Part shown: piece by piece, positions 5,407 to 63,942 of the stretch
Layout of the letters: every line of letters starts with the position of its first letter
How positions within the stretch are numbered: position 1 is the first letter of the stretch
DNA from: Gordius sp. MW1
Taxonomy: Eukaryota; Nematomorpha; Gordioida; Gordea; Gordiidae
Assembly: GCA_964036665.1 (NCBI GenBank)
Contig: OZ038529.1
Location: 15,818,060-15,882,059, forward strand
Reading direction: 5' to 3'
Length of the DNA: 64,000 nt
The notes under the pieces: model-generated
Databases searched by the model: none
What the model saw: the letters and a program-made list of their open reading frames with translations, nothing else
What the model was told of the DNA's origin: nothing
Made by a program: the position numbers and the translations under genes

Positions 5407-5420
5407 AATAAAACGTTGTC

Positions 5421-36430: not shown

Positions 36431-39400
36431 GGCTTACTTTTATATATTTTTTCATGCTCTTTCACATAGAATCGAAAAAAATAAATATTTTTACCTCGAA
36501 ATTTTTCACATATTTTTCTTTCAACCGTATGCATCCGATGAAAGTTGTCGTTTTCAGACGTGGTTTCGATGATAAAAAGTAAAAATTTATCAGAATCAGA
36601 AAACTATTACTTTAAAATCATGATCGCATAGTGCATTTTTGAAAAATTAAGCTCTCACGTTGCGATACAACAAACTAATCGCAACAATAAAACGTTGTCT
36701 TTTGTCAAAATGATAGTTCTCGCAGCTTAAAACCTCTTTTCGGAAGTCAATCGAGGATAATAGGATTCTCAAATTGGCTTACTTTTATATATTTTTTTAT
36801 GCTCTTTCACATAAAATCGAAAAAAATAAATATTTTTACCTCAAAATTTTTAACAAATTTTTCTTTGAACCGTATTCATCCGATGAAAGATGTCGTTTTC
36901 AGACGTGGTTTCTATGATCCCAAGTAAAAATTAGAATCTGAAAACTATTACTTTGAAATCATGATCGCATAGAGCTATTTTCATAAATTAAGCACCCACG
37001 TTGCGATACAACAAACTAATCGCAACAATAAAACGTTTTCTTTTGTCAAAATGATAGTTCTCGCAGCTTAAAACCTCTTTTCGGAAGTCAATCGAGGATA
37101 ATAGGATTCTCATATTGGCTTACTTTTATATATTTTTTCATGCTCTTTCACATAGAATCGATAAAAATAAATATTTTTACCTCGAAATTTTTTACATATT
37201 TTTCTTTGAACCGTATGCATCCGATGAAAGTTGTCGTTTTCAGACCTGGTTTCGATGATAAAAAGTAAAAATTTATCAGAATCAGAAAACTATTACTTTA
37301 AAATCATGATCGCATAGTGCATTTTTGAAAAATTAAGCACTCACGTTGCGATACAACAAACTAATCGCAACAATAAAACGTTGTCTTTTGTCAAAATGAT
37401 AGTTCTCGCAGCTTAAAACCTCTTTTCGGAAGTCAATCGAGGATAATAGGATTCTCAAATTGGCTTACTTTTATATATTTTTTTATGCTCTTTCACATAG
37501 AATCGAAAAAAATAAATATTTTTACCTCAAAATTTTTCACAAATTTTTCTTTGAACCGTATTCATCCGATGAAAGATGTCGTTTTCAGACGTGGTTTCTA
37601 TGATCCCAAGTAAAAATTAGAATCTGAAAACTATTACTTTAAAATCATGATCGCATAGTGCATTTTTGAAAAATTAAGCACTAAGGTTGCGATACAACAA
37701 ACTAATCGCAACAATAAAACGTTGTCTTTTGTCAAAATGATAGTTCTCGCAGCTTAAAACCTCTTTTCGGAAGTCAATCGAGGATAATAGGATTCTCAAA
37801 TTGGCTTACTTTTATATATTTTTTCATGCTCTTTCACATAGAATCGAAAAAAATAAATATTTTACCTCAAAATTTTTCACATATTTTTCTTTCAACCGTA
37901 TGCATCCGATGAAAGTTGTCGTTTTCAGACGTGGTTTCGATGATAAAAAGTAAAAATTCATCAGAATTAGAAAACTATTACTTTAAAATCATGATCGCAT
38001 AGTGCATTTTTGAAAAATTCAGCACTCACGTTGCGATACAACAAACTAATCGCAACAATAAAACGTTGTCTTTTGTCAAAATGAATAGTTCTGGCAGCTT
38101 AAAACCTCTTTTCGGAGTAAATCGAGGATAATAGGATTCTCAAATTGGCTTACTTTTATATATTTTTTCATGCTCTTTCACATAGAATCGAAAAAAATAA
38201 ATATTTTTACCTCAAAATTTTTCACATATTTTTCTTTCAACCGTATGCATCCGATGAAAGTTGTCGTTTTCAGACGTGGTTTCGATGATAAAAAGTAAAA
38301 ATTTATCAGAATCAGAAAACTATTACTTTAAAATCATGATCGCATAGTGCATTTTTGAAAAATTAAGCTCTCACGTTGCGATACAACAAACTAATCGCAA
38401 CAATAAAACGTTGTCTTTTGTCAAAATGATAGTTCTCGCAGCTTAAAACCTCTTTTCGGAAGTCAATCGAGGATAATAGGATTCTCAAATTGGCTTACTT
38501 TTATATATTTTTTCATGCTCTTTCACATAGAATCGAAAAAAATAAATATTTTAACTCAAAATTTTTCACATATTTTTCTTTCAACCGTATGCATCCGATG
38601 AAAGTTGTCGTTTTCAGACGTGGTTTCGATGATAAAAAGTAAAAATTCATCAGAATTAGAAAACTATTACTTTAAAATCATGATCGCATAGTGCATTTTT
38701 GAAAAATTCAGCACTCACGTTGTGATACAACAAACTAATCGCAACAATAAAACGTTGTCTTTTGTCAAAATGAATAGTTCTGGCAACTTAAAACCTCTTT
38801 TCGGAGTAAATCGAGGATAATAGGATTCTCAAATTGGCTTACTTTTATATATTTTTTCATGCTCTTTCACATAGAATCGAAAAAAATAAATATTTTTACC
38901 TCAAAATTTTTCACATATTTTTCTTTCAACCGTATGCATCCGATGAAAGTTGTCGTTTTCAGACGTGGTTTCGATGATAAAAAGTAAAAATTTATCAGAA
39001 TCAGAAAACTTTTACTTTAAAATCATGATCGCATAGTGCATTTTTGAAAAATTAAGCACTCACGTTGCGATACAACAAACTAATCGCAACAATAAAACGT
39101 TGTCTTTTGTCAAAATGCTAGTTCTCGCAGCTTAAAACCTCTTTTCGTAAGTCAATCGAGGATAATAGGATTCTCAAATTGGCTTACTTTTATATATTTT
39201 TTCATGCCCTTTCACATAGAATCGAAAAAAATAAATATTTTTACCTCAAAATTTTTCACATATTTTTCTTTGAACCGTATTCATCCGATGAAAGATGTCG
39301 TTTTCAGACGTGGTTCTATGATCCCAAGTAAAAATTTTAAAGAATCTGAAAACTATTACTTTGAAATCATAATCGCATAGAGCCATTTTCATAAATTAAG

Positions 39401-42318
39401 CACTCACGTTGCGATACAACAAACTAATCGCAACAATAAAACGTTGTCTTTTGTCAAAATGATAGTTCTCGCAGCTTAAAACCTCTTTTCGGAAGTCAAT
39501 CGAGGATAATAGGATTCTCAAATTGGCTTACTTTTATATATTTTTTCATGCTCTTTTACATAGAATCGAAAAAAATAAATATTTTTACCTCAAAATTTTT
39601 CACATATTTTTCCTTCAACCGTATGCATCCGATGAAAGTTGTCGTTTTCAGACGTGGTTTCGATGATAAAAGTAAAAATTTATCAGAATCAGAAAACTAT
39701 TACTTTAAAATCATGATCGCATAGAGCCATTTTCATAAATTAAGCACTCACGTTGCGATACAAGAAACTAATCGCAACAATAAAACGTTGTCTTTTGTCA
39801 AAATGATAGTTCTCGCCGCTTAAAACCTCTTTTCGGAAGTCAATCGAGGATAATAGGATTCCAAATTGGCTTACTTTTATATATTTTTTCATGCTCTTTC
39901 ACATAGAATCGAAAAAAATAAATATTTTTACCTCGAAATTTTTCACATATTTTTCTTTGAACCGTATGCATCCGATGAAAGTTGTCGTTTTCAGACGTGG
40001 TTTCGATGATAAAAAGTAAAAATTTATCAGAATCAGAAAACTACTACTTTAAAATCATGATCGCATCGTGCATTTTTGAAAAATTAAGCACTCACGTTGC
40101 GATACAACAAACTAATCGCAACAATAAAACGTTGTCTTTTGTCAAAATGATAGTTCTCGCAGCTTAAAACCTCTTTTCGGAAGTCAATCGAGGATAATAG
40201 GATTCTCAAATTGGCTTACTTTTATATATTTTTTCATGCTCTTTCACATAGAATCGAAAAAAATAAATATTTTTACCTCAAAATTTTTCACATATTTTTC
40301 TTTCAACCGTATGCATCCGATGAAAGTTGTCGTTTTCAGACGTGGTTTCGATGATAAAAAGTAAAAATTTATCAGAATTAGAAAACTATTACTTTAAAAT
40401 CATGATCGCATAGTGCATTTTTGAAAAATTCAGCACTCACGTTGCGATACAACAAACTAATCGCAACACTAAAACGTTGTCTTTTGTCAAAATGAATAGT
40501 TCTGGCAACTTAAAACCTCTTTTCGGAAGTAAATCGAGGATAATAGGATTCTCAAATTGGCTTACTTTTATATATTTTTTCATGCTCTTTCACATAGAAT
40601 CGAAAAAAATAAATATTTTTACCTCAAAATCTTTCACATATTTTTCTTTCAACCGTATGCATCCGATGAAAGTTGTCGTTTTCAGACGTGGTTTCGATGA
40701 TAAAAAGTAAAAATTTATCAGAATCAGAAAACTATTACTTTAAAATCATGATCGCATAGTGCATTTTTGAAATATTAAGCACTCACGTTGCGATACAACA
40801 AACTAATCGCAACAATAAAACGTTGTCTTTTGTCAAAATGAATAGTTCTGGCAGCTTAAAACCTCTTTTTGGAAGTAAATCGAGGATAATAGGATTCTCA
40901 AATTGGCTTACTTTTATATATTTTTTCATGCTCTTTCACATAGAATCGAAAAAAATAAATATTTTTACCTCAAAATTTTTCACATCTTTTTCTTTCAACC
41001 GTATGCATCCGATGAAAGTTGTCGTTTTCAGACGTGGTTTCGATGATAAAAAGTAAAAATTTATCAGAATCAGAAAACTATTACTTTGAAATCATAATCG
41101 CATAGAGCTATTTTCATAAATTAAGCACTCACGTTGCGATACAACAAACTAATCGCAACAATAAAACGTTGTCTTTTGTCAAAATGATAGTTCTCACAGC
41201 TTAAAACCTCTCTTCGGAAGTCAATCGAGAATAATAGGATTCTCAAATTGGCTTACTTTTATATATTTTTTCATGCTCTTTTACATAGAATCGAAAAAAA
41301 TAAATATTTTTACCTCAAAATTTTTCACATATTTTTCCTTCAACCGTATGCATCCGATGAAAGTTGTCGTTTTCAGACGTGGTTTCGATGATAAAAAGTA
41401 AAAATTTATCAGAATCAGAAAACTATTACTTTAAAATCATGATCGTATAGAGCCATATTTATAAATTAAGCACTCACGTTGCGATACAAGAAACTAATCG
41501 CAACAATAAAACGTTGTCTTTTGTCAAAATGATAGTTCTCGCAGCTTAAAACCTCTTTTCGGAAGTCAATCGAGGATAATAGGATTCTCAAATTGGCTTA
41601 CTTTTATATATTTTTTCATGCTCTTTCACATAGAATCGAAAAAAATAAATATTTTTACCTCGAAATTTTTCACATATTTTTCTTTGAACCGTATGCATCC
41701 GATGAAAGTTGTCGTTTTCAGACGTGGTTTCGATGATAAAAAGTAAAAATATATCAGAATCAGAAAACTACTACTTTAAAATCATGATCGCATGGTGCAT
41801 TTTTGAAAAATTAAGCACTCACGTTGCGATACAACAAACTAATCGCAACAATAAAACGTTGTCTTTTGTCAAAATGATAGTTCTCGCAGCTTAAAACCTC
41901 TTTTCGGAAGTCAATCGAGGATAATAGGATTCTCAAATTGGCTTACTTTTATATATTTTTTCATGCTCCACATAGAATCGTAAATATTTTTACCTCGAAA
42001 TTTTTCACATATTTTTCTTTGAACCGTATGCATCCGATGAAAGTTGTCGTTTTCAGACGTGGTTTCGATGATAAAAAGTAAAAATTTATCAGAATCAGAA
42101 AACTACTACTTTAAAATCATGATCGCATGGTGCATTTTTGAAAAATTAAGCACTCACGTTGCGATACAACAAACTAATCGCAACAATAAAACGTTGTCTT
42201 TTGTCAAAATGATAGTTCTCGCAGCTTAAAACCTCTTTTCGGAAGTCAATCGAGGATAATAGGATTCTCAAATTGGCTTACTTTTATATATTTTTTCATG
42301 CTCTTTCACATAGAATCG
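36431..42318 (+). repeat. Dispersed 17-monomer block, copy 1
   Basis: This stretch of about 5.9 kb returns 18.9 kb to the right at 55333-61222. The anchors ACGTTTTCTTTTG (37033/55935), TTCACAAATTT (37538/56440), ATGCTAG (39115/58017) and GGCTTAC (36431/55333) all give 18902 bp. Later 1-2 bp indels shift the offset to 18904. Between about 40275 and 41100 the two copies differ in monomer content, so exchange has reshuffled one of them. Most units are classes F, G and E. Confidence 0.9.
39181..39524 (+). repeat. Reference monomer, class E (344 bp)
   Basis: Carries GATGTCGTTTTC, GGTTCTATGATCCC, AAAAATTTTAAAGAATC, CATAATCGCATAG and AGAGCCATTTTCATAAATT followed by AAGCACTCACG. It combines an A-like core with a B-like GCACTCACG end. 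It is scattered from about 39 kb to the right edge, including 44 kb, 51 kb, 58 kb, 60 kb and 62-63.9 kb. Confidence 0.88.
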
Positions 42319-45300
42319 TAAATATTTTTACCTCGAAATTTTTTACATATTTTCCTTTCAACCGTATGCATCCGATGAAAGTTGTCGTTTTCAGACGTGG
42401 TTTCTATGATCCCAAGTAAAAATTTATCAGAATCAGAAAACTATTACTTTGAAATCATGATCGCATAATGCCTTTTTGAAAAATTAAGCACTCACGTTGC
42501 GATACAACAAACTAATCGCAACAATAAACCGTTGTCTTTTGTCAAAATGTTAGTTCTCGCAGCTTAAAACCTCTTTGCGGAAGTCAATCGAGGATAATAG
42601 GATTCTCAAATTGGCTTACTTTTATATATTTTTTCATGCTCTTTCACATAGAATCGGAAAATATAAATATTTTTACCTCAAAATTTTTCACATATTTTTC
42701 TTTAAACCGTATTCATCTGATGAAAGTTGTCGTTTTCAGACGTGGTTTCTATGATCCCAAGTAAAAATTTATCAGAATCTGAAAACTATTACTTTGAAAT
42801 CATGATCGCAGAATGCATTTTTGAAAAATTAAGCATCACGTTGCGATGCAACAAACTAATCGCAACAATAAAACGTTGTCATTTGTCAAAATGATAGTTC
42901 TCGCAGCTTAAAACCTCTTTTCGGAAGTCAATCGAGGATAATAGGATTCTCAAATTGGCTTACTTTTATATATTTTTTTATGCTCTTTCACATAGAATCG
43001 AAAAAAATAAATATTTTTACCTCAAAATTTTTCACATATTTTTCTTTGAACCGTATTCATCCGATGAAAGATGTCGTTTTCAGACGTGGTTTTATGATCC
43101 CAAGTAAAAATTAGAATCTGAAAACTATTACTTTGAAATCATGATCGCATAGAGCTATTTTCATAAATTAAGCACTCACGTTGCGATACAACAAACTAAT
43201 CGCAACAATAAAACGTTGTCTTTTGTCAAAATGATAGTTCTCGCAGCTTAAAACCTCTTTTCGGAAGTCAATCGAGGATAATAGGATTCTCAAATTGGCT
43301 TACTTTTATATATTCTTTCATGCTCTTTCACATAGAATCGAAAAAAATAAATATTTTTACCTCAAATTTCACATATTTTTCTTTCAACCGTATGCATCCG
43401 ATGAAAGTTGTCGTTTTCAGACGTGGTTTCGATGATAAAAAGTAAAAATTTATCAGAATCAGAAAACTATTACTTTAAAATCATGATCGCATAGTGCATT
43501 TTTGAAAAATTAAGCAATCACGTTGCGATACAACAAACTAATCGCAACAATAAAACGTTGTCTTTTGTCAAAATGATAGTTCTCGCAGCTTAAAACCTCT
43601 TATGGAAGTCAATCGAGGATAATAGGATTCTCAAATTGGCTTACTTTTATATATTTTTTTATGCTCTTTCACATAGAATCGAAAAAAATAAATATTTTTA
43701 CCTCAAAATTTTTCACATATTTTTCTTTGAACCGTATTCATCCGATGAAAGATGTCGTTTTCAGACGTGGTTTCTACGATCCCAAGTAAAAATTAGAATC
43801 TGAAAACTATTACTTTAAAATCATGATTGCATAGAGCTATTTTCATAAATTAAGCACTCACGTTGCGATACAACAAACTAATCGCAACAATAAAACGTTG
43901 TCTTTTGTCAAAATGATAGTTCTCGCAGCTTAAAACCTCTTTTCGGAAGTCAATCGAGGATAATAGGATTCTCAAATTGGCTTTCTTTTATATATTTTTT
44001 CATGCTCTTTCACATAGAATCGAAAAAAATAAATATTTTTACCTCAAAATTTTTCACATATTTTTCTTTCAACCGTATGCATACGATGAAAGTTGTCGTT
44101 TTCAGACGTGGTTTCGATGATAAAAAGTAAAAATTTATCAGAATCAGAAAACTATTACTTTAAAATCATGATCGCATAAAGCCATTTTCATAAATTAAGC
44201 ACTCACGTTGCGATACAACAAACTAATCGCAACATTAAAACGTTGTCTTTTGTCAAAATGATAGTTCTCGCAGCTTAAAACCTCTTTTCGAAAGTCAATC
44301 GAGGATAATAGGATTCTCAAATTGGCTTACTTTTATATATTTTTTCATGCTCTTTCACATAGAATCGAAAAAAATAAATATTTTTACCTCAAAATTTTTC
44401 ACATATTTTTCTTTGAACCGTATTCATCCGATGAAAGATGTCGTTTTCAGACGTGGTTTCTATGATCCCAAGTAATAATTTTAAAGAATCTGAAAACTAT
44501 TACTTTGAAATCATAATCGCATAGAGCCATTTTCATAAATTAAGCACTCACGTTGCGATACAACAAACTAATCGCAACAATAAAACGTTGTCTTTTGTCA
44601 AAATGATAGTTCTCGCAGCTTAAAACCTCTTTTCGGAAGTCAATCGAGGATAATAGGATTCTCAAATTGGCTTACTTTTATATATTTTTTCATGCTCTTT
44701 CACATATAATCGAAAAAAATAAATATTTTTACCTCAAAATTTTTCACATATTTTTCTTTGAACCGTATTCATCCGATAAAGATGTCGTTTTCAGACGTGG
44801 TTTCTATGATCCCAAGTAAAAATTTTAAAGAATCTTAAAACTATTACTTTGAAATCATGATCGCATAGATCCATTTTCATAAATTAAGCACTCACGTTGC
44901 GATACAACAAACTAATCGCAACAATAAAACGTTGTCTTTTGTCAAAATGATAGTTCTCGCAGCTTAAAACCTCTTTTCGGAAGTCAATCGAGGATAATAG
45001 GATTCTCAAATTGGCTTACTTTTATATATTTTTTTATGCTCTTTCACATAGAATCGAAAAAAATAAATATTTTTACCTCAAAATTGTTCACAAATTTTTC
45101 TTTGAACCGTATTCATCCGATGAAAGATGTCGTTTTCAGACGTGGTTTCTATGATCCCAAGTAAAAATTAGAATCTGAAAACTATTACTTTAAAATCATG
45201 ATCGCATAGTGCATTTTTGAAAAATTAAGCACTAAGGTTGCGATACAACAAACTAATCGCAACAATAAAACGTTGTCTTTTGTCAAAATGATAGTTCTCG

Positions 45301-45353
45301 CAGCTTAAAACCTCTTTTCGGAAGTCAATCGAGGATAATAGGATTCTCAAATT

Positions 45354-45697
45354 GGCTTACTTTTATATATTTTTTCATGCTCTTTCACATAGAATCGAAA
45401 AAAATAAATATTTTACCTCAAAATTTTTCACATATTTTTCTTTCAACCGTATGCATCCGATGAAAGTTGTCGTTTTCAGACGTGGTTTCGATGATAAAAA
45501 GTAAAAATTCATCAGAATTAGAAAACTATTACTTTAAAATCATGATCGCATAGTGCATTTTTGAAAAATTCAGCACTCACGTTGCGATACAACAAACTAA
45601 TCGCAACAATAAAACGTTGTCTTTTGTCAAAATGAATAGTTCTGGCAGCTTAAAACCTCTTTTCGGAGTAAATCGAGGATAATAGGATTCTCAAATT
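45354..45697 (+). repeat. Reference monomer, class G (344 bp)
   Basis: Marks are AAATATTTTACC (one T fewer), GATGATAAAAAG, AATTCATCAGAATTAG, GAAAAATTCAGCAC, AAAATGAATAGTTCTGGC and TTTTCGGAGTAAATC. It is confined to the right half of the array. The inserted A in ATGAATAG shifts the frame and, in some copies with GGAAGTAAATC, leaves a 77-codon frame (40477-40710, 40823-41056, 59380-59613, 61447-61680). This is a by-product of indels and not a coding unit. Confidence 0.88.
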
Positions 45698-47766
45698 GGC
45701 TTACTTTTATATATTTTTTCATGCTCTTTCACATAGAATCGAAAAAAATAAATATTTTTACCTCAAAATTTTTCACATATTTTTCTTTCAACCGTATTCA
45801 TCCGATGAAAGTTGTCGTTTTCAGACGTGGTTTCGATGATAAAAAGTAAAAATTCATCAGAATTAGAAAACTATTACTTTAAAATCATGATCGCATAGTG
45901 CATTTTTGAAAAATTAAGCACTCACGTTGCGATACAACAAACTAATCGCAACAATAAAACGTTGTCTTTTGTCAAAATGAATAGTTCTGGCAGCTTAAAA
46001 CCTGTTTTCGGAGTAAATCGAGGATAATAGGATTCTCAAATTGGCTTACTTTTATATATTTTTTCATGCTCTTTCACATAGAATCGAAAAAAATAAATAT
46101 TTTTACCTCAAAATTGTTCACAAATTTTTCTTTGAACCGTATTCATCCGATGAAAGATGTCGTTTTCAGACGTGGTTTCTATGATCCCAAGTAAAAATTA
46201 GAATCTGAAAACTATTACTTTAAAATCATGATCGCATAGTGCATTTTTGAAAAATTAAGCACTAAGGTTGCGATACAACAAACTAATCGCAACAATAAAA
46301 CGTTGTCTTTTGTCAAAATGATAGTTCTCGCAGCTTAAAACCTCTTTTCGGAAGTCAATCGAGGATAATAGGATTCTCAAATTGGCTTACTTTTATATAT
46401 TTTTTCATGCTCTTTCACATAGAATCGAAAAAAATAAATATTTTACCTCAAAATTTTTCACATATTTTTCTTTCAACCGTATGCATCCGATGAAAGTTGT
46501 CGTTTTCAGACGTGGTTTCGATGATAAAAAGTAAAAATTTATCAGAATCAGAAAACTATTACTTTAAAATCATGATCGCATAAAGCCATTTTCATAAATT
46601 AAGCACTCACGTTGCGATACAACAAACTAATCGCAACATTAAAACGTTGTCTTTTGTCAAAATGATAGTTCTCGCAGCTTAAAACCTCTTTTCGGAAGTC
46701 AATCGAGGATAATAGGATTCTCAAATTGGCTTACTTTTATATATTTTTTCATGCTCTTTCACATAGAATCGAAAAAAATAAATATTTTTACCTCAAAATT
46801 TTTCACATATTTTTCTTTCAACCGTATGCATCCGATGAAAGTTGTCGTTTTCAGACGTGGTTTCGATGATAAAAAGTAAAAATTCATCAGAATTAGAAAA
46901 CTATTACTTTAAAATCATGATCGCATAGTGCATTTTTGAAAAATTAAGCACTCACGTTGCGATACAACAAACTAATCGCAACAATAAAACGTTGTCTTTT
47001 GTCAAAATGAATAGTTCTGGCAGCTTAAAACCTCTTTTCGGAGTAAATCGAGGATAATAGGATTCTCAAATTGGCTTACTTTTATATATTTTTTCATGCT
47101 CTTTCACATAGAATCGAAAAAAATAAATATTTTTACCTCAAACTTTTTCACATATTTTTCTTTCAACCGTATGCATCCGATGAAAGTTGTCGTTTTCAGA
47201 CGTGGTTTCGATGATAAAAAGTAAAAATTTATCAGAATCAGAAAACTATTACTTTAAAATCATGATCGCATAGAGCCATTTTCATAAATTAAGCACTCAC
47301 GTTGCGATACAACAAACTAATCGCAACAATAAAACGTTGTCTTTTGTCAAAATGATAGTTCTCGCAGCTTAAAACCTCTTTTCGGAAGTCAATCGAGGAT
47401 AATAGGATTCTCAAATTGGCTTACTTTTATATATTTTTTCATGCTCTTTCACATAGAATCGAAAAAAATAAATATTTTTACCTCGAAATTTTTCACATAT
47501 TTTTCTTTGAACCGTATGCATCCGAAGAAAGTTGTCGTTTTCAGACGTGGTTTCGATGATAAAAAGTAAAAATTTATCAGAATCAGAAAACTATTACTTT
47601 AAAATCATGATCGCATAGTGAGTGCATTTTTGAAAAATTAAGCACTCACGTTGCGATACAACAAACTAATCGCAACAATAAAACGTTGTCTTTTGTCAAA
47701 ATGATAGTTCTCGCAGCTTAAAACCTCTTTTCGGAAGTCAATCGAGGATAATAGGATTCTCAAATT

Positions 47767-48111
47767 GGCTTACTTTTATATATTTTTTCATGCTCTTTCA
47801 CATAGAATCGAAAAAAATAAATATTTTTACCTCGAAATTTTTCACATATTTTTCTTTGAACCGTATGCATCCGATGAAAGTTGTCGTTTTCAGACGTGGT
47901 TTCGATGATAAAAAGTAAAAATTTATCAGAATCAGAAAACTATTACTTTAAAATCATGATCGCATAGTGCATTTTTGAAAAATTAAGCTCTCACGTTGCG
48001 ATACAACAAACTAATCGCAACAATAAAACGTTGTCTTTTGTCAAAATGATAGTTCTCGCAGCTTAAAACCTCTTTTCGGAAGTCAATCGAGGATAATAGG
48101 ATCCTCAAATT
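47767..48111 (+). repeat. Reference monomer, class F (345 bp)
   Basis: Diagnostic marks are CTCGAAATT, GAACCGTATGCATCC, GGTTTCGATGATAAAAAG (against CTATGATCCCAAG elsewhere), TACTTTAAAATC and AGTGCATTTTTG. This copy has AAGCTCTCACG in the place of AAGCACTCACG, which spoils one outer pair of the second dyad. F is the commonest unit in the right half. The variant GCATGGTGC or GCATCGTGC replaces TAG in some F copies and yields repeated 61-codon frames. Confidence 0.9.
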
Positions 48112-50236
48112 GGCTTACTTTTATAAATTTTTTTATGCTCTTTCACATAGAATCGAAAAAAATAAATATTTTTACCTCAAAATTTTTCACATATTTTTCT
48201 TTCAACCGTATGCATCCGATGAAAGTTGTCGTTTTCAGACGTGGTTTCGATGATAAAAAGTATAAATTTATCAGAATTAGAAAACTATTACTTTAAAATC
48301 ATGATCGCATAGTGCATTTTTGAAAAATTCAGCACTCACGTTGCGATACAACAAACTAATCGCAATAATAAAACGTTGTCTTTTGTCAAAATGATAGTTA
48401 TCGCAGCTTAAAACCTCTTTTCGGAAGTCAATCGAGGATAATAGGATTCTCAAATTGGCTTACTTTTATATATTTTTTCATGCTCTTTCACATAGAATCG
48501 AAAAAAATAAATATTTTTACCTCGAAATTTTTCACATATTTTTCTTTGAACCGTATGCATCCGATGAAAGTTGTCGTTTTCAGACGTGGTTTCGATGATA
48601 AAAAGTAAAAATTTATCAGAATCAGAAAACTATTACTTTAAAATCATGATCGCATAGTGCATTTTTGAAAAATTAAGCTCTCACGTTGCGATACAACAAA
48701 CTAATCGCAACAATAAAACGTTGTCTTTTGTCAAAATGATAGTTCTCGCAGCTTAAAACCTCTTTTCGGAAGTCAATCGAGGATAATAGGATTCTCAAAT
48801 TGGCTTACTTTTATATATTTTTTTATGCTCTTTCACATAAAATCGAAAAAAATAAATATTTTTACCTCAAAATTTTTCACAAATTTTTCTTTGAACCGTA
48901 TTCATCCGATGAAAGATGTCGTTTTCAGACGTGGTTTCTATGATCCCAAGTAAAAATTAGAATCTGAAAACTATTACTTTGAAATCATGATCGCATAGAG
49001 CTATTTTCATAAATTAAGCACTCACGTTGCGATACAACAAACTAATCGCAACAATAAAACGTTTTCTTTTGTCAAAATGATAGTTCTCGCAGCTTAAAAC
49101 CTCTTTTCGGAAGTCAATCGAGGATAATAGGATTCTCATATTGGCTTACTTTTATATATTTTTTCATGCTCTTTCACATAGAATCGATAAAAATAAATAT
49201 TTTTACCTCGAAATTTTTTACATATTTTTCTTTGAACCGTATGCATCCGATGAAAGTTGTCGTTTTCAGACCTGGTTTCGATGATAAAAAGTAAAAATTT
49301 ATCAGAATCAGAAAACTATTACTTTAAAATCATGATCGCATAGTGCATTTTTGAAAAATTAAGCACTCACGTTGCGATACAACAAACTAATCGCAACAAT
49401 AAAACGTTGTCTTTTGTCAAAATGATAGTTCTCGCAGCTTAAAACCTCTTTTCGGAAGTCAATCGAGGATAATAGGATTCTCAAATTGGCTTACTTTTAT
49501 ATATTTTTTTATGCTCTTTCACATAGAATCGAAAAAAATAAATATTTTTACCTCAAAATTTTTCACAAATTTTTCTTTGAACCGTATTCATCCGATGAAA
49601 GATGTCGTTTTCAGACGTGGTTTCTATGATCCCAAGTAAAAATTAGAATCTGAAAACTATTACTTTAAAATCATGATCGCATAGTGCATTTTTGAAAAAT
49701 TAAGCACTAAGGTTGCGATACAACAAACTAATCGCAACAATAAAACGTTGTCTTTTGTCAAAATGATAGTTCTCGCAGCTTAAAACCTCTTTTCGGAAGT
49801 CAATCGAGGATAATAGGATTCTCAAATTGGCTTACTTTTATATATTTTTTCATGCTCTTTCACATAGAATCGAAAAAAATAAATATTTTACCTCAAAATT
49901 TTTCACATATTTTTCTTTCAACCGTATGCATCCGATGAAAGTTGTCGTTTTCAGACGTGGTTTCGATGATAAAAAGTAAAAATTCATCAGAATTAGAAAA
50001 CTATTACTTTAAAATCATGATCGCATAGTGCATTTTTGAAAAATTCAGCACTCACGTTGCGATACAACAAACTAATCGCAACAATAAAACGTTGTCTTTT
50101 GTCAAAATGAATAGTTCTGGCAGCTTAAAACCTCTTTTCGGAGTAAATCGAGGATAATAGGATTCTCAAATTGGCTTACTTTTATATATTTTTTCATGCT
50201 CTTTCACATAGAATCGAAAAAAATAAATATTTTTAC

Positions 50237-53200
50237 CTCAAATTTCACATATTTTTCTTTCAACCGTATGCATCCGATGAAAGTTGTCGTTTTCAGACGT
50301 GGTTTCGATGATAAAAAGTAAAAATTTATCAGAATCAGAAAACTATTACTTTAAAATCATGATCGCATAGTGCATTTTTGAAAAATTAAGCAATCACGTT
50401 GCGATACAACAAACTAATCGCAACAATAAAACGTTGTCTTTTGTCAAAATGATAGTTCTCGCAGCTTAAAACCTCTTATGGAAGTCAATCGAGGATAATA
50501 GGATTCTCAAATTGGCTTACTTTTATATATTTTTTTATGCTCTTTCACATAGAATCGAAAAAAATAAATATTTTTACCTCAAAATTTTTCACATATTTTT
50601 CTTTGAACCGTATTCATCCGATGAAAGATGTCGTTTTCAGACGTGGTTTCTACGATCCCAAGTAAAAATTAGAATCTGAAAACTATTACTTTAAAATCAT
50701 GATTGCATAGAGCTATTTTCATAAATTAAGCACTCACGTTGCGATACAACAAACTAATCGCAACAATAAAACGTTGTCTTTTGTCAAAATGATAGTTCTC
50801 GCAGCTTAAAACCTCTTTTCGGAAGTCAATCGAGGATAATAGGATTCTCAAATTGGCTTTCTTTTATATATTTTTTCATGCTCTTTCACATAGAATCGAA
50901 AAAAATAAATATTTTTACCTCAAAATTTTTCACATATTTTTCTTTCAACCGTATGCATACGATGAAAGTTGTCGTTTTCAGACGTGGTTTCGATGATAAA
51001 AAGTAAAAATTTATCAGAATCAGAAAACTATTACTTTAAAATCATGATCGCATAAAGCCATTTTCATAAATTAAGCACTCACGTTGCGATACAACAAACT
51101 AATCGCAACATTAAAACGTTGTCTTTTGTCAAAATGATAGTTCTCGCAGCTTAAAACCTCTTTTCGAAAGTCAATCGAGGATAATAGGATTCTCAAATTG
51201 GCTTACTTTTATATATTTTTTCATGCTCTTTCACATAGAATCGAAAAAAATAAATATTTTTACCTCAAAATTTTTCACATATTTTTCTTTGAACCGTATT
51301 CATCCGATGAAAGATGTCGTTTTCAGACGTGGTTTCTATGATCCCAAGTAATAATTTTAAAGAATCTGAAAACTATTACTTTGAAATCATAATCGCATAG
51401 AGCCATTTTCATAAATTAAGCACTCACGTTGCGATACAACAAACTAATCGCAACAATAAAACGTTGTCTTTTGTCAAAATGATAGTTCTCGCAGCTTAAA
51501 ACCTCTTTTCGGAAGTCAATCGAGGATAATAGGATTCTCAAATTGGCTTACTTTTATATATTTTTTCATGCTCTTTCACATATAATCGAAAAAAATAAAT
51601 ATTTTTACCTCAAAATTTTTCACATATTTTTCTTTGAACCGTATTCATCCGATAAAGATGTCGTTTTCAGACGTGGTTTCTATGATCCCAAGTAAAAATT
51701 TTAAAGAATCTTAAAACTATTACTTTGAAATCATGATCGCATAGATCCATTTTCATAAATTAAGCACTCACGTTGCGATACAACAAACTAATCGCAACAA
51801 TAAAACGTTGTCTTTTGTCAAAATGATAGTTCTCGCAGCTTAAAACCTCTTTTCGGAAGTCAATCGAGGATAATAGGATTCTCAAATTGGCTTACTTTTA
51901 TATATTTTTTTATGCTCTTTCACATAGAATCGAAAAAAATAAATATTTTTACCTCAAAATTGTTCACAAATTTTTCTTTGAACCGTATTCATCCGATGAA
52001 AGATGTCGTTTTCAGACGTGGTTTCTATGATCCCAAGTAAAAATTAGAATCTGAAAACTATTACTTTAAAATCATGATCGCATAGTGCATTTTTGAAAAA
52101 TTAAGCACTAAGGTTGCGATACAACAAACTAATCGCAACAATAAAACGTTGTCTTTTGTCAAAATGATAGTTCTCGCAGCTTAAAACCTCTTTTCGGAAG
52201 TCAATCGAGGATAATAGGATTCTCAAATTGGCTTACTTTTATATATTTTTTCATGCTCTTTCACATAGAATCGAAAAAAATAAATATTTTACCTCAAAAT
52301 TTTTCACATATTTTTCTTTCAACCGTATGCATCCGATGAAAGTTGTCGTTTTCAGACGTGGTTTCGATGATAAAAAGTAAAAATTCATCAGAATTAGAAA
52401 ACTATTACTTTAAAATCATGATCGCATAGTGCATTTTTGAAAAATTCAGCACTCACGTTGCGATACAACAAACTAATCGCAACAATAAAACGTTGTCTTT
52501 TGTCAAAATGAATAGTTCTGGCAGCTTAAAACCTCTTTTCGGAGTAAATCGAGGATAATAGGATTCTCAAATTGGCTTACTTTTATATATTTTTTCATGC
52601 TCTTTCACATAGAATCGAAAAAAATAAATATTTTTACCTCAAAATTTTTCACATATTTTTCTTTCAACCGTATTCATCCGATGAAAGTTGTCGTTTTCAG
52701 ACGTGGTTTCGATGATAAAAAGTAAAAATTCATCAGAATTAGAAAACTATTACTTTAAAATCATGATCGCATAGTGCATTTTTGAAAAATTAAGCACTCA
52801 CGTTGCGATACAACAAACTAATCGCAACAATAAAACGTTGTCTTTTGTCAAAATGAATAGTTCTGGCAGCTTAAAACCTGTTTTCGGAGTAAATCGAGGA
52901 TAATAGGATTCTCAAATTGGCTTACTTTTATATATTTTTTCATGCTCTTTCACATAGAATCGAAAAAAATAAATATTTTTACCTCAAAATTGTTCACAAA
53001 TTTTTCTTTGAACCGTATTCATCCGATGAAAGATGTCGTTTTCAGACGTGGTTTCTATGATCCCAAGTAAAAATTAGAATCTGAAAACTATTACTTTAAA
53101 ATCATGATCGCATAGTGCATTTTTGAAAAATTAAGCACTAAGGTTGCGATACAACAAACTAATCGCAACAATAAAACGTTGTCTTTTGTCAAAATGATAG

Positions 53201-56200
53201 TTCTCGCAGCTTAAAACCTCTTTTCGGAAGTCAATCGAGGATAATAGGATTCTCAAATTGGCTTACTTTTATATATTTTTTCATGCTCTTTCACATAGAA
53301 TCGAAAAAAATAAATATTTTACCTCAAAATTTTTCACATATTTTTCTTTCAACCGTATGCATCCGATGAAAGTTGTCGTTTTCAGACGTGGTTTCGATGA
53401 TAAAAAGTAAAAATTTATCAGAATCAGAAAACTATTACTTTAAAATCATGATCGCATAAAGCCATTTTCATAAATTAAGCACTCACGTTGCGATACAACA
53501 AACTAATCGCAACATTAAAACGTTGTCTTTTGTCAAAATGATAGTTCTCGCAGCTTAAAACCTCTTTTCGGAAGTCAATCGAGGATAATAGGATTCTCAA
53601 ATTGGCTTACTTTTATATATTTTTTCATGCTCTTTCACATAGAATCGAAAAAAATAAATATTTTTACCTCAAAATTTTTCACATATTTTTCTTTCAACCG
53701 TATGCATCCGATGAAAGTTGTCGTTTTCAGACGTGGTTTCGATGATAAAAAGTAAAAATTCATCAGAATTAGAAAACTATTACTTTAAAATCATGATCGC
53801 ATAGTGCATTTTTGAAAAATTAAGCACTCACGTTGCGATACAACAAACTAATCGCAACAATAAAACGTTGTCTTTTGTCAAAATGAATAGTTCTGGCAGC
53901 TTAAAACCTCTTTTCGGAGTAAATCGAGGATAATAGGATTCTCAAATTGGCTTACTTTTATATATTTTTTCATGCTCTTTCACATAGAATCGAAAAAAAT
54001 AAATATTTTTACCTCAAACTTTTTCACATATTTTTCTTTCAACCGTATGCATCCGATGAAAGTTGTCGTTTTCAGACGTGGTTTCGATGATAAAAAGTAA
54101 AAATTTATCAGAATCAGAAAACTATTACTTTAAAATCATGATCGCATAGAGCCATTTTCATAAATTAAGCACTCACGTTGCGATACAACAAACTAATCGC
54201 AACAATAAAACGTTGTCTTTTGTCAAAATGATAGTTCTCGCAGCTTAAAACCTCTTTTCGGAAGTCAATCGAGGATAATAGGATTCTCAAATTGGCTTAC
54301 TTTTATATATTTTTTCATGCTCTTTCACATAGAATCGAAAAAAATAAATATTTTTACCTCGAAATTTTTCACATATTTTTCTTTGAACCGTATGCATCCG
54401 AAGAAAGTTGTCGTTTTCAGACGTGGTTTCGATGATAAAAAGTAAAAATTTATCAGAATCAGAAAACTATTACTTTAAAATCATGATCGCATAGTGAGTG
54501 CATTTTTGAAAAATTAAGCACTCACGTTGCGATACAACAAACTAATCGCAACAATAAAACGTTGTCTTTTGTCAAAATGATAGTTCTCGCAGCTTAAAAC
54601 CTCTTTTCGGAAGTCAATCGAGGATAATAGGATTCTCAAATTGGCTTACTTTTATATATTTTTTCATGCTCTTTCACATAGAATCGAAAAAAATAAATAT
54701 TTTTACCTCGAAATTTTTCACATATTTTTCTTTGAACCGTATGCATCCGATGAAAGTTGTCGTTTTCAGACGTGGTTTCGATGATAAAAAGTAAAAATTT
54801 ATCAGAATCAGAAAACTATTACTTTAAAATCATGATCGCATAGTGCATTTTTGAAAAATTAAGCTCTCACGTTGCGATACAACAAACTAATCGCAACAAT
54901 AAAACGTTGTCTTTTGTCAAAATGATAGTTCTCGCAGCTTAAAACCTCTTTTCGGAAGTCAATCGAGGATAATAGGATCCTCAAATTGGCTTACTTTTAT
55001 AAATTTTTTTATGCTCTTTCACATAGAATCGAAAAAAATAAATATTTTTACCTCAAAATTTTTCACATATTTTTCTTTCAACCGTATGCATCCGATGAAA
55101 GTTGTCGTTTTCAGACGTGGTTTCGATGATAAAAAGTATAAATTTATCAGAATTAGAAAACTATTACTTTAAAATCATGATCGCATAGTGCATTTTTGAA
55201 AAATTCAGCACTCACGTTGCGATACAACAAACTAATCGCAATAATAAAACGTTGTCTTTTGTCAAAATGATAGTTATCGCAGCTTAAAACCTCTTTTCGG
55301 AAGTCAATCGAGGATAATAGGATTCTCAAATTGGCTTACTTTTATATATTTTTTCATGCTCTTTCACATAGAATCGAAAAAAATAAATATTTTTACCTCG
55401 AAATTTTTCACATATTTTTCTTTGAACCGTATGCATCCGATGAAAGTTGTCGTTTTCAGACGTGGTTTCGATGATAAAAAGTAAAAATTTATCAGAATCA
55501 GAAAACTATTACTTTAAAATCATGATCGCATAGTGCATTTTTGAAAAATTAAGCTCTCACGTTGCGATACAACAAACTAATCGCAACAATAAAACGTTGT
55601 CTTTTGTCAAAATGATAGTTCTCGCAGCTTAAAACCTCTTTTCGGAAGTCAATCGAGGATAATAGGATTCTCAAATTGGCTTACTTTTATATATTTTTTT
55701 ATGCTCTTTCACATAAAATCGAAAAAAATAAATATTTTTACCTCAAAATTTTTCACAAATTTTTCTTTGAACCGTATTCATCCGATGAAAGATGTCGTTT
55801 TCAGACGTGGTTTCTATGATCCCAAGTAAAAATTAGAATCTGAAAACTATTACTTTGAAATCATGATCGCATAGAGCTATTTTCATAAATTAAGCACTCA
55901 CGTTGCGATACAACAAACTAATCGCAACAATAAAACGTTTTCTTTTGTCAAAATGATAGTTCTCGCAGCTTAAAACCTCTTTTCGGAAGTCAATCGAGGA
56001 TAATAGGATTCTCATATTGGCTTACTTTTATATATTTTTTCATGCTCTTTCACATAGAATCGATAAAAATAAATATTTTTACCTCGAAATTTTTTACATA
56101 TTTTTCTTTGAACCGTATGCATCCGATGAAAGTTGTCGTTTTCAGACCTGGTTTCGATGATAAAAAGTAAAAATTTATCAGAATCAGAAAACTATTACTT

Positions 56201-57112
56201 TAAAATCATGATCGCATAGTGCATTTTTGAAAAATTAAGCACTCACGTTGCGATACAACAAACTAATCGCAACAATAAAACGTTGTCTTTTGTCAAAATG
56301 ATAGTTCTCGCAGCTTAAAACCTCTTTTCGGAAGTCAATCGAGGATAATAGGATTCTCAAATTGGCTTACTTTTATATATTTTTTTATGCTCTTTCACAT
56401 AGAATCGAAAAAAATAAATATTTTTACCTCAAAATTTTTCACAAATTTTTCTTTGAACCGTATTCATCCGATGAAAGATGTCGTTTTCAGACGTGGTTTC
56501 TATGATCCCAAGTAAAAATTAGAATCTGAAAACTATTACTTTAAAATCATGATCGCATAGTGCATTTTTGAAAAATTAAGCACTAAGGTTGCGATACAAC
56601 AAACTAATCGCAACAATAAAACGTTGTCTTTTGTCAAAATGATAGTTCTCGCAGCTTAAAACCTCTTTTCGGAAGTCAATCGAGGATAATAGGATTCTCA
56701 AATTGGCTTACTTTTATATATTTTTTCATGCTCTTTCACATAGAATCGAAAAAAATAAATATTTTACCTCAAAATTTTTCACATATTTTTCTTTCAACCG
56801 TATGCATCCGATGAAAGTTGTCGTTTTCAGACGTGGTTTCGATGATAAAAAGTAAAAATTCATCAGAATTAGAAAACTATTACTTTAAAATCATGATCGC
56901 ATAGTGCATTTTTGAAAAATTCAGCACTCACGTTGCGATACAACAAACTAATCGCAACAATAAAACGTTGTCTTTTGTCAAAATGAATAGTTCTGGCAGC
57001 TTAAAACCTCTTTTCGGAGTAAATCGAGGATAATAGGATTCTCAAATTGGCTTACTTTTATATATTTTTTCATGCTCTTTCACATAGAATCGAAAAAAAT
57101 AAATATTTTTAC
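50237..57112 (+). repeat. 20-monomer tandem duplication, copy 2 (6876 bp)
   Basis: Direct head-to-tail copy of 43361-50236. It ends where copy 3 would begin: at 57113 the sequence reads ACCTCAAAATTTTTCAC rather than ACCTCAAATTTCAC and continues with a different series. The last ~1.8 kb (55333-57112) is also the start of the second dispersed block, so 36431-38200, about 48457-50236 and 55333-57112 are three related copies. The near identity implies a very recent event or an assembly duplication; sequence alone cannot separate these. Confidence 0.93.
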
Positions 57113-60100
57113 CTCAAAATTTTTCACATATTTTTCTTTCAACCGTATGCATCCGATGAAAGTTGTCGTTTTCAGACGTGGTTTCGATGATAAAAAGTAA
57201 AAATTTATCAGAATCAGAAAACTATTACTTTAAAATCATGATCGCATAGTGCATTTTTGAAAAATTAAGCTCTCACGTTGCGATACAACAAACTAATCGC
57301 AACAATAAAACGTTGTCTTTTGTCAAAATGATAGTTCTCGCAGCTTAAAACCTCTTTTCGGAAGTCAATCGAGGATAATAGGATTCTCAAATTGGCTTAC
57401 TTTTATATATTTTTTCATGCTCTTTCACATAGAATCGAAAAAAATAAATATTTTACCTCAAAATTTTTCACATATTTTTCTTTCAACCGTATGCATCCGA
57501 TGAAAGTTGTCGTTTTCAGACGTGGTTTCGATGATAAAAAGTAAAAATTCATCAGAATTAGAAAACTATTACTTTAAAATCATGATCGCATAGTGCATTT
57601 TTGAAAAATTCAGCACTCACGTTGCGATACAACAAACTAATCGCAACAATAAAACGTTGTCTTTTGTCAAAATGAATAGTTCTGGCAACTTAAAACCTCT
57701 TTTCGGAGTAAATCGAGGATAATAGGATTCTCAAATTGGCTTACTTTTATATATTTTTTCATGCTCTTTCACATAGAATCGAAAAAAATAAATATTTTTA
57801 CCTCAAAATTTTTCACATATTTTTCTTTCAACCGTATGCATCCGATGAAAGTTGTCGTTTTCAGACGTGGTTTCGATGATAAAAAGTAAAAATTTATCAG
57901 AATCAGAAAACTTTTACTTTAAAATCATGATCGCATAGTGCATTTTTGAAAAATTAAGCACTCACGTTGCGATACAACAAACTAATCGCAACAATAAAAC
58001 GTTGTCTTTTGTCAAAATGCTAGTTCTCGCAGCTTAAAACCTCTTTTCGTAAGTCAATCGAGGATAATAGGATTCTCAAATTGGCTTACTTTTATATATT
58101 TTTTCATGCCCTTTCACATAGAATCGAAAAAAATAAATATTTTTACCTCAAAATTTTTCACATATTTTTCTTTGAACCGTATTCATCCGATGAAAGATGT
58201 CGTTTTCAGACGTGGTTCTATGATCCCAAGTAAAAATTTTAAAGAATCTGAAAACTATTACTTTGAAATCATAATCGCATAGAGCCATTTTCATAAATTA
58301 AGCACTCACGTTGCGATACAACAAACTAATCGCAACAATAAAACGTTGTCTTTTGTCAAAATGATAGTTCTCGCAGCTTAAAACCTCTTTTCGGAAGTCA
58401 ATCGAGGATAATAGGATTCTCAAATTGGCTTACTTTTATATATTTTTTCATGCTCTTTTACATAGAATCGAAAAAAATAAATATTTTTACCTCAAAATTT
58501 TTCACATATTTTTCCTTCAACCGTATGCATCCGATGAAAGTTGTCGTTTTCAGACGTGGTTTCGATGATAAAAAGTAAAAATTTATCAGAATCAGAAAAC
58601 TATTACTTTAAAATCATGATCGCATAGAGCCATTTTCATAAATTAAGCACTCACGTTGCGATACAAGAAACTAATCGCAACAATAAAACGTTGTCTTTTG
58701 TCAAAATGATAGTTCTCGCCGCTTAAAACCTCTTTTCGGAAGTCAATCGAGGATAATAGGATTCCAAATTGGCTTACTTTTATATATTTTTTCATGCTCT
58801 TTCAGATAGAATCGAAAAAAATAAATATTTTTACCTCGAAATTTTTCACATATTTTTCTTTGAACCGTATGCATCCGATGAAAGTTGTCGTTTTCAGACG
58901 TGGTTTCGATGATAAAAAGTAAAAATTTATCAGAATCAGAAAACTACTACTTTAAAATCATGATCGCATCGTGCATTTTTGAAAAATTAAGCACTCACGT
59001 TGCGATACAACAAACTAATCGCAACAATAAAACGTTGTCTTTTGTCAAAATGATAGTTCTCGCAGCTTAAAACCTCTTTTCGGAAGTCAATCAAGGATAA
59101 TAGGATTCTCAAATTGGCTTACTTTTATATATTTTTTCATGCTCTTTCACATAGAATCGAAAAAAATAAATATTTTTACCTCAAAATTTTTCACATATTT
59201 TTCTTTCAACCGTATGCATCCGATGAAAGTTGTCGTTTTCAGACGTGGTTTCGATGATAAAAAGTAAAAATTTATCAGAATCAGAAAACTATTACTTTAA
59301 AATCATGATCGCATAGTGCATTTTTGAAATATTAAGCACTCACGTTGCGATACAACAAACTAATCGCAACAATAAAACGTTGTCTTTTGTCAAAATGAAT
59401 AGTTCTGGCAGCTTAAAACCTCTTTTTGGAAGTAAATCGAGGATAATAGGATTCTCAAATTGGCTTACTTTTATATATTTTTTCATGCTCTTTCACATAG
59501 AATCGAAAAAAATAAATATTTTTACCTCAAAATCTTTCACATATTTTTCTTTCAACCGTATGCATCCGATGAAAGTTGTCTTTTTCAGACGTGGTTTCGA
59601 TGATAAAAAGTAAAAATTTATCAGAATCAGAAAACTATTACTTTAAAATCATGATCGCATAGTGCATTTTTGAAAAATTAAGCACTCACGTTGCGATACA
59701 ACAAACTAATCGCAACAATAAAACGTTGTCTTTTGTCAAAATGATAGTTCTCGCAGCTTAAAACCTCTTTTCGGAAGTCAATCGAGGATAATAGGATTCT
59801 CAAATTGGCTTACTTTTATATATTTTTTCATGCTCTTTCACATAGAATCGAAAAAAATAAATATTTTTACCTCAAAATTTTTCACATATTTTTCTTTGAA
59901 CCGTATTCATCCGATGAAAGATGTCGTTTTCAGACGTGGTTCTATGATCCCAAGTAAAAATTTTAAAGAATCTGAAAACTATTACTTTGAAATCATAATC
60001 GCATAGAGCTATTTTCATAAATTAAGCACTCACGTTGCGATACAACAAACTAATCGCAACAATAAAACGTTGTCTTTTGTCAAAATGATAGTTCTCACAG

Positions 60101-61222
60101 CTTAAAACCTCTCTTCGGAAGTCAATCGAGAATAATAGGATTCTCAAATTGGCTTACTTTTATATATTTTTTCATGCTCTTTTACATAGAATCGAAAAAA
60201 ATAAATATTTTTACCTCAAAATTTTTCACATATTTTTCCTTCAACCGTATGCATCCGATGAAAGTTGTCGTTTTCAGACGTGGTTTCGATGATAAAAAGT
60301 AAAAATTTATCAGAATCAGAAAACTATTACTTTAAAATCATGATCGCATAGAGCCATATTTATAAATTAAGCACTCACGTTGCGATACAAGAAACTAATC
60401 GCAACAATAAAACGTTGTCTTTTGTCAAAATGATAGTTCTCGCAGCTTAAAACCTCTTTTCGGAAGTCAATCGAGGATAATAGGATTCTCAAATTGGCTT
60501 ACTTTTATATATTTTTTCATGCTCTTTCACATAGAATCGAAAAAAATAAATATTTTTACCTCGAAATTTTTCACATATTTTTCTTTGAACCGTATGCATC
60601 CGATGAAAGTTGTCGTTTTCAGACGTGGTTTCGATGATAAAAAGTAAAAATATATCAGAATCAGAAAACTACTACTTTAAAATCATGATCGCATGGTGCA
60701 TTTTTGAAAAATTAAGCACTCACGTTGCGATACAACAAACTAATCGCAACAATAAAACGTTGTCTTTTGTCAAAATGATAGTTCTCGCAGCTTAAAACCT
60801 CTTTTCGGAAGTCAATCGAGGATAATAGGATTCTCAAATTGGCTTACTTTTATATATTTTTTCATGCTCTTTCACATAGAATCGTAAATATTTTTACCTC
60901 GAAATTTTTCACATATTTTTCTTTGAACCGTATGCATCCGATGAAAGTTGTCGTTTTCAGACGTGGTTTCGATGATAAAAAGTAAAAATTTATCAGAATC
61001 AGAAAACTACTACTTTAAAATCATGATCGCATGGTGCATTTTTGAAAAATTAAGCACTCACGTTGCGATACAACAAACTAATCGCAACAATAAAACGTTG
61101 TCTTTTGTCAAAATGATAGTTCTCGCAGCTTAAAACCTCTTTTCGGAAGTCAATCGAGGATAATAGGATTCTCAAATTGGCTTACTTTTATATATTTTTT
61201 CATGCTCTTTCACATAGAATCG
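55333..61222 (+). repeat. Dispersed 17-monomer block, copy 2
   Basis: Counterpart of 36431-42318 at about +18902 bp. Shared rare marks are CATGCCCTTTC (39206/58107), GGTTCTATGATCC, GGATTCCAAATTGG (about 39858/58760) and ATCGTAAATATT near 42316 and 60884. It differs in the 59.2-60.0 kb part, where the GAAATATT and AATCTTTCAC marks are combined differently from copy 1. Copy 1 also has CATGCTCCACATAG near 41965, where this copy has the normal CTCTTTCACATAG. Confidence 0.9.
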
Positions 61223-63942
61223 AAAAAAATAAATATTTTTACCTCAAAATTTTTCACATATTTTTCTTTCAACCAACCGTATGCATCCGATGAAAGTTGT
61301 CGTTTTCAGACGTGGTTTCGATGATAAAAAGTAAAAATTTATCAGAATTAGAAAACTATTACTTTAAAATCATGATCGCATAGTGCATTTTTGAAAAATT
61401 CAGCACTCACGTTGCGATACAACAAACTAATCGCAACAATAAAACGTTGTCTTTTGTCAAAATGAATAGTTCTGGCAACTTAAAACCTCTTTTCGGAAGT
61501 AAATCGAGGATAATAGGATTCTCAAATTGGCTTACTTTTATATATTTTTTCATGCTCTTTCACATAGAATCGAAAAAAATAAATATTTTTACCTCAAAAT
61601 CTTTCACATATTTTTCTTTCAACCGTATGCATCCGAGGAAAGTTGTCGTTTTCAGACGTGGTTTCGATGATAAAAAGTAAAAATTTATCAGAATCAGAAA
61701 ACTATTACTTTAAAATCATGATCGCATAGTGCATTTTTGAAAAATTAAGCACTCACTTTGCGATACAACAAACTAATCGCAACAATAAAACGTTGTCTTT
61801 TGTCAAAATGCTAGTTCTCGCAGCTTAAAACCTCTTTTCGGAAGTCAATCGCTGATAATAGGATTCTCAAATTGGCTTACTTTTATATATTTTTTCATGC
61901 TCTTTCACATAGAATTGAAAAAAATAAATATTTTTACCTCAAAATCTTTCACATATTTTTCTTTCAACCGTATGCATCCGATGAAAGTTGTCGTTTTCAG
62001 ACGTGGTTTCGATGATAAAAAGTAAAAATTTATCAGAATCAGAAAACTATTACTTTAAAATCATGATCGTATAGTGCATTTTTGAAAAATTAAGCACTCA
62101 CGTTCCGATACAACAAACTAATCGCAACAATAAAACGTTGTCTTTTGTCAAAATGCTAGTTCTCGCAGCTTAAAACCTCTTTTCGGAAGTCAATCGCTGA
62201 TAATAGGATTCTCAAATTGGCTTACTTTTAAATATTTTTTTATGCTCTTTCACATAGAATCGAAAAAAATAAATATTTTTACCTCAAAATTTTTCACATA
62301 TTTTTCTTTGAACCGTATTCATCCGATGAAAGATGTCGTTTTCAGACGTGGTTTCTATGATCCCAAGTAAAAATTTTAAAGAATCTGAAAACTATTACTT
62401 TGAAATCATAATCGCATAGAGCCATTTTCATAAATTAAGCACTCACGTTGCGATACAACAAACTAATCGCAACAATAAAACGTTGTCTTTTGTCAAAATG
62501 ATAGTTCTCACAGCTTAAAACCTCTTTTCGGAAGTCAATCGAATATAATAGGATTCTCAAATTGGCTTACTTTTATATATTTTTTCATGCTCTTTCACAT
62601 AGAATCGAAAAAAATAAATATTTTTACCTCAAAATTTTTCACATATTTTTCTTTGAACCGTATTCATCCGATGAAAGATGTCGTTTTCAGACGTGGTTTC
62701 TATGATCCCAAGTAAAAATTTTAAAGAATCTGGAAACTATTACTTTGAAATCATGATCGCATAGAGCCATTTTCATAAATTAAGCACTCACGTTGCGATA
62801 CAACAAACTAATCGCAACAATAAAACGTTGTCTTTTGTCAAAATGATAGTTCTCGCAGCTTAAAACATCTTTTCGGAAGTCAATCGAGGATAATAGGATT
62901 CTCAAATTGGCTTACTTTTATATATTTTTTCATGCTCTTTTACATAGAATCGAAAAAAATAAATATTTTTACCTCAAAATTTTTCACATATTTTTCCTTC
63001 AACCGTATGCATCCGATGAAAGTTGTCGTTTTCAGACGTGGTTTCGATGATAAAAAGTAAAAATTTATCAGAATCAGAAAACTATTACTTTAAAATCATG
63101 ATCGCATAGAGCCATTTTCATAAATTAAGCACTCACGTTGCGATACAAGAAACTAATCGCAACAATAAAACGTTGTCTTTTGTCAAAATGATAGTTCTCG
63201 CAGCTTAAAACCTCTTTTCGGAAGTCAATCGAGGATAATAGGATTCTCAAATTGGCTTACTTTTATATATTTTTTCATGCTCTTTCACATAGAATCGAAA
63301 AAAATAAATATTTTTACCTCGAAATTTTCACATATTTTTCTTTGAACCGTATGCATCCGATGAAAGTTGTCGTTTTCAGACGTGGTTTCGATGATAAAAA
63401 GTAAAAATTTATCAGAATCAGAAAACTACTACTTTAAAATCATTATCGCATGGTGCATTTTTGAAAAATTAAGCACTCACGTTGCGATACAACAAACTAA
63501 TCGCAACAATAAAACGTTGTCTTTTGTCAAAATGATAGTTCTCGCAGCTTAAAACCTCTTTTCGGAAGTCAATCGAGGATAATAGGATTCTCAAATTGGC
63601 TTACTTTTATATATTTTTTCATGCTCTTTCACATAGAATCGAAAAAAATAAATATTTTTACCTCAAAATTTTTCACATATTTTTCTTTCAACCGTATGCA
63701 TCCGATGAAAGTTGTCGTTTTCAGACGTGGTTTCTATGATCCCAAGTAAAAATTTTAAAGAATCTGAAAACGATTACTTTGAAATCATAATCGCATAGAG
63801 CCATTTTCATAAAATAAGCACTCACGTTGCGATACAACAAACTAATCGCAACAATAAAACGTTGTCTTTTGTCAAAATGATAGTTCTCACAGCTTAAAAC
63901 CTCTTTTCGGAAGTCAATCGAGGATAATAGGATTCTCAAATT
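61223..63942 (+). repeat. Array subdomain to the right of the dispersed block: F, G and E units
   Basis: Eight further monomers. The first has a 4-bp tandem duplication (TTTCAACCAACCGTATG near 61270) and, with the next, resembles 40275-40710. Units near 61850 and 62200 carry the private ATCGCTGATAATAGG. Three E units with TTTTAAAGAATC follow (62380, 62730, 63755), separated by F units, the last with GCATGGTGC. No new sequence type appears. Confidence 0.85.

Follow-up and report, generated by a model that had tools for sequence, protein, structure and literature searches.

An exact 6,876-bp, 20-monomer tandem duplication in a satellite array of Gordius sp. MW1, probably produced by out-of-register homologous exchange

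Unequal exchange and break-induced replication (BIR) are the models of satellite growth discussed in a review (PMC8997354). Changes of this kind have been followed directly in human pedigrees, where 13 of the 18 de novo centromeric SVs described in PMC12240836 were located in alpha-satellite HOR arrays, and all 13 of these were integer changes of 680-12,228 bp. A preprint (PMC12746033) describes human germline insertions of ~1.2-7.5 kb and one of 56 kb. The same preprint reports that most centromeric arrays are transmitted unchanged, which weighs against the proposal made below.

The window analysed here is a stretch of 64,000 nucleotides from Gordius sp. MW1, located mid-contig at C3:15818060-15882059. 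The contig C3 is 25.86 Mb long and belongs to an assembly of 211.8 Mb in 12 contigs. The whole window is made of an AT-rich ~344-bp satellite, for which TRF gave a period of 344 over 1-64000. The 187 monomer anchors have modal spacings of 344 and 345 bp, and adjacent monomers differ on average at 20.0 columns (lag 1, 185 pairs). The window is a long head-to-tail array of similar units and qualifies as satellite DNA.

1..64000, plus strand: satellite array of ~187 head-to-tail monomers of ~344-345 bp, adjacent copies with 93% matches (TRF, anchors).

A sequence-only reading of the window had described a near-identical tandem duplication of 6876 bp comprising a block of 20 monomers, and proposed the alignment of 43361-50236 with 50237-57112. 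This alignment contains 0 differences in 6,876 bp, and the maximal exact run at lag 6,876 is longer, with 6,927 bp (43316-50242 versus 50192-57118), so that the description was correct and slightly understated. The block is formed by monomers 126-145 (0-based, in the phase of this analysis), whose lengths sum to 6,876 bp.

43316..50242, plus strand: first copy, a maximal exact repeat of 20 monomers plus the 51-bp junction overlap.
50192..57118, plus strand: second copy, exact across 6,927 bp.

The private marks that were claimed to recur exactly 6876 bp apart do recur. The 12-mers of the first block that are present exactly twice in the window number 204, in 21 clusters, and 204/204 are found again at +6,876, as is implied by the exact identity. 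The mark cited as a 4-bp insertion, GTGAGTGC, occurs on the plus strand of the window at 47618 and 54494 only, at the spacing of 6,876 bp. Neighbouring monomers within a copy are more divergent, as was also claimed: the 19 adjacent pairs of the block have 4 to 30 differing aligned columns each, with a mean of 17.5. Against 0 differences between the two blocks, this divergence excludes their chance similarity.

The exact run exceeds the lag by 51 bp, which constitute the junction.

50192..50242, plus strand: exchange tract, 51 bp common to both parental boundaries; phase 45-95 of monomer 146.

The border monomer shares its variants with the right boundary to the left of 50192 (among them GGAGTAAATC and TATATTTTTTC) and with the left boundary to the right of 50242 (the shortened CTCAAATTTCAC). 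It is a chimera of the two boundary monomers, joined by an in-register exchange. When monomer pairs and an in-register point within them were drawn at random 3,000 times, the exact tract around the point had a median length of 39 bp, and in 37.5% of the draws it reached at least 51 bp; therefore, a 51-bp tract is ordinary for homologous exchange in this array. Of the 43 matches listed for a 261-bp query spanning the border, the only one at 100% was the border itself, and the other 42 were at 93-99%. This search scored 40 of 1217 candidates and indicates that the chimeric border is likely to be unique. The features expected from homologous unequal exchange or BIR, which are an integer number of monomers, a chimeric junction in register and local homology, are all present. 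The integer, in-register chimeric junction is thus compatible with both unequal exchange and BIR, and proves neither of them.

Duplications of other sizes were identified by scanning the window for the best run per lag, at lags of 60-20,000. Full exact tandem duplications were found at two lags only, 6,876 and 344.

22301..23015, plus strand: exact single-monomer tandem duplication, lag 344, run of 371 bp.
23300..29073, plus strand: another block copied at lag 3,416 (10 monomers), where the exact repeat of 2,358 bp falls short of the lag.
60024..64000, plus strand: beginning of a tandem duplication of 18 monomers at lag 6,209, which has 14 mismatches in 6,248 bp and extends past the right end of the window.

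The 18-monomer duplication, with 0.2% mismatches, begins 3 kb to the right of the second copy of the 20-monomer block. A further copy, at lag 6,496, has an exact run of 4,968 bp, short of a full unit. A wider scan covered 264 kb of the array, which included the window and 100 kb on either side, and yielded 14 rows with an exact run of at least 0.9 of the lag. The rows at lags 4132 and 1370 were set aside, since each is a multiple of another row at the same location. Three of the 14 rows are shorter than one lag: a single-monomer row, a 4-monomer row with one mismatch, and the row at lag 2,324, which lies inside a retroelement-like interval and is no satellite duplication. The nine exact full tandem duplications in the 264 kb have units of 1, 1, 2, 3, 6, 6, 7, 7 and 20 monomers. 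Two exact runs are multi-copy, one of them a 2-monomer unit in 4.42 copies and the other a 6-monomer unit.

C3:15967472-15976059: 2,066-bp unit of 6 monomers, repeated exactly in tandem over 4.16 copies, ~92 kb to the right of the second copy.

The junction overlaps measure 27-184 bp in the seven exact rows with fewer than 2.4 copies, including that of the 20-monomer duplication. The earlier claim that large blocks and not single monomers are amplified agrees with the 20-monomer block and with the 18-monomer and lag-6,496 copies, but is contradicted by the single monomer duplicated at 22301. Since single monomers and small blocks are also duplicated, the contrast does not hold for the array.

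The 750 anchors of the 264 kb are all on one strand, with 0 on the other, and their series has five irregular gaps of 434, 671, 680, 680 and 6,165 bp. A 90-bp sub-monomer tandem duplication with copies 97% alike is located at window positions 1928-2108, beside the 434-bp anchor spacing. The 6.2-kb interval between satellite anchors at C3:15919538-15925702 includes ~5.8 kb of non-satellite sequence, in which a ~1.17-kb repeat, a ~1.16-kb spacer, a repeat, a spacer and a repeat follow each other, with copies 99.3-99.8% alike. Its one frame of at least 80 residues is partly satellite. The interval resembles an insertion into the array of a non-coding LTR-type element that carries a tandem LTR-internal duplication.

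Based on the exactness of the copies and the structure of their border, a mechanism of the duplication can be proposed. Out-of-register homologous exchange between monomers 20 units apart very probably duplicated the 6,876-bp block in a single step, presumably in the germline. Two satellite monomers 20 units apart would pair out of register, and the exchange, in register within the monomer, would be resolved inside the 51-bp stretch identical in both parents. The product would be one chimeric border monomer and two copies as yet without mutation. The exchange may have occurred by unequal exchange between sister chromatids or homologues, or by BIR re-starting behind the fork. The two routes yield the same product, and the sequence cannot separate them. 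The proposal is supported by the 264 kb, where eight further tandem duplications with units of 1 to 7 monomers are both full and exact. It is weighed against by the size of the unit, which is nearly three times that of the next exact unit in the 264 kb (7 monomers, ~2.4 kb), though the 18-monomer neighbour adjoins.

The perfect identity over 6.9 kb would equally be produced by a false duplication, in which the assembler added the second copy without a genomic basis or joined two haplotypes. However, a specific chimeric monomer forms the border, none of the other 42 matches listed for it reaches 100%, and the exact sequence common to its two sides is only 51 bp long. Long-read assemblers rely on overlaps far above 51 bp, and typical long reads exceed 6.9 kb, though the read type of this assembly may differ. 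Because so little sequence is shared at the border, reads carrying the junction probably existed, and we regard an assembly artefact as quite improbable. A miscount of copies would concern copy number only and overlaps with the main explanation: the duplication would be real, with at least three copies in the genome represented by two in the assembly. The nearby multi-copy exact runs, with 4.16 copies of the 6-monomer unit and 4.42 copies of the 2-monomer unit, lend this some plausibility, and we consider such a collapse unlikely.

The identity of the copies might also have been maintained in an older duplication by gene conversion between them, a process that is accepted as a homogeniser of satellites (PMC8997354). 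However, the identity is complete over 6.9 kb, whereas the 18-monomer neighbour of similar size has its 14 mismatches, and other tracts in the window retain 0.04-1.2% differences. A single event is simpler than gene conversion, for which there is very little probability here. Single-step out-of-register exchange is therefore the explanation that we prefer.

The absence of differences sets only an upper bound on the age of the duplication. The 95% upper bound on the divergence between the copies is 4.4e-4 (0 differences in 6,876 bp), which would correspond to at most ~73,000 to 22,000 generations if rates between 3e-9 and 1e-8 per site per generation are assumed. At the human centromeric mutation rate of 4.94e-8 given in PMC12240836, the bound would be ~4,400 generations, although this rate is human and may not apply to this organism. 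The divergence of the five longest other tracts was compared with 0/6,876, with equal rates assumed and P uncorrected. Four of the tracts are more diverged than the 20-monomer duplication: those at lag 5 (3 differences in 1,716 bp, P = 0.008), lag 55 (7 differences in 3,782 bp, P = 0.0007), lag 6 (10 differences in 2,389 bp, P = 1e-6) and lag 9 (42 differences in 3,382 bp, with two monomers accounting for 35, P = 6e-21). The lag-10 tract, with 1 difference in 2,382 bp, is indistinguishable from it (P = 0.26), and so are the other exact duplications nearby in the 264 kb. The duplication is thus more recent than four of the five tracts, and the claim that it is the youngest event visible is not established. 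The lag-35 tract was left out of the comparison because it belongs to the same older copy as the lag-55 tract.

36405..40186, plus strand: more diverged tract, 11 monomers matching 55307-59089 (lag 55).

At lag 35, the match of this tract to the first copy (48431-50146) ends after 5 monomers, at the junction, and the lag-55 match continues past the end of the second copy and reaches the flank. The geometry of the two matches would allow either order of events. The 7 differences in the lag-55 tract favour the 20-monomer duplication as the later event.

Identical monomer pairs are most numerous in the window at lag 20, where they make up 21 of 166 pairs, 19 of them in the block; the other lags from 1 to 69 have at most 7 identical pairs each. 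The 20-monomer unit is present in two copies only, and the window does not classify as a HOR array. Monomer comparisons at lags from 1 to 69 rule out a fixed 20-monomer higher-order unit throughout the window. We tentatively speculate that no higher-order unit is preferred in the growth of the array, which would proceed by single-step duplications ranging from 1 to 20 monomers and would keep the array monomeric in appearance while renewing all of it. The 20-monomer block and its 18-monomer neighbour might then be recent cases of the way in which a new higher-order unit may arise.

The mid-contig position of the window and the matches of the border query on C2, C3, C5, C6 and C7 (among the matches listed) fit a centromeric or pericentromeric satellite, which this satellite is likely to be. 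C3 begins with a CCCTAA repeat. The samples of C3 taken at 12.8, 13.4, 13.9 and 15.1 Mb contain the satellite on the minus strand, and from ~15.11 to 16.8 Mb it is on the plus strand among the matches listed. The samples at 14.3 and 14.7 Mb (C3:14300001-14302000 and 14700001-14702000), which lie between places with the 344-bp satellite, contain 351- and 352-bp tandem repeats, respectively, and these did not match the 344-bp monomer. The sample at 17.0 Mb contained no tandem repeat. Immediately left of C3:15102000-15108631 the satellite runs on the minus strand, and immediately right of this interval it runs on the plus strand; therefore, the orientation switches within the interval. Together with the minus arrays further left, this looks like a large inverted (dyad-like) arrangement. 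The CENP-B-box motif, TTCGNNNNANNCGGG, had 0 matches in the window with at most 1 mismatch, compared with 5.19 expected by chance, and the window does not qualify as a CENP-B-box satellite. A scan of the window against Rfam at gathering thresholds gave no match. Elsewhere in the assembly, histone gene arrays with unit spacings of ~5.2 and 6.3 kb are located at C2:12985957-13214431 and 15175767-15284061, and the array at C2:12985957-13214431 switches orientation twice. A 14.8-kb contig encodes a cytochrome b C-terminal domain (table 5) and has rRNA-like matches on the other strand, some of them under the gathering cut-off; ARAGORN detected no tRNA on it.

The presence of both orientations on one contig is shared with the macro-dyad (inverted) satellite described for Tribolium madens in PMC13081366, which has another period, whereas the orientation on C3 is known from coarse sampling only. 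The locus described here provides the clean junction of one large satellite duplication, with the exchange tract mapped to 51 bp, and offers a test case both for checking assemblies and for compiling the size spectra of satellite duplications. It leaves the prevailing understanding of satellite evolution unchanged. As in the unequal-exchange and BIR models covered in PMC8997354, the duplication is out of register and its homologous junction is in register. As in the de novo integer-HOR changes of human alpha-satellite, a kilobase-long change of whole units is located inside a satellite array, and its 6.9 kb falls within the sizes reported in PMC12240836 and PMC12746033. The human changes affect another satellite in another organism and were observed in pedigrees, whereas the event in Gordius sp. 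MW1 is deduced from one assembly and took place in an array that has no fixed higher-order unit. The duplication most likely represents ordinary satellite turnover, probably recent, of the same kind as the changes seen in human centromeres.
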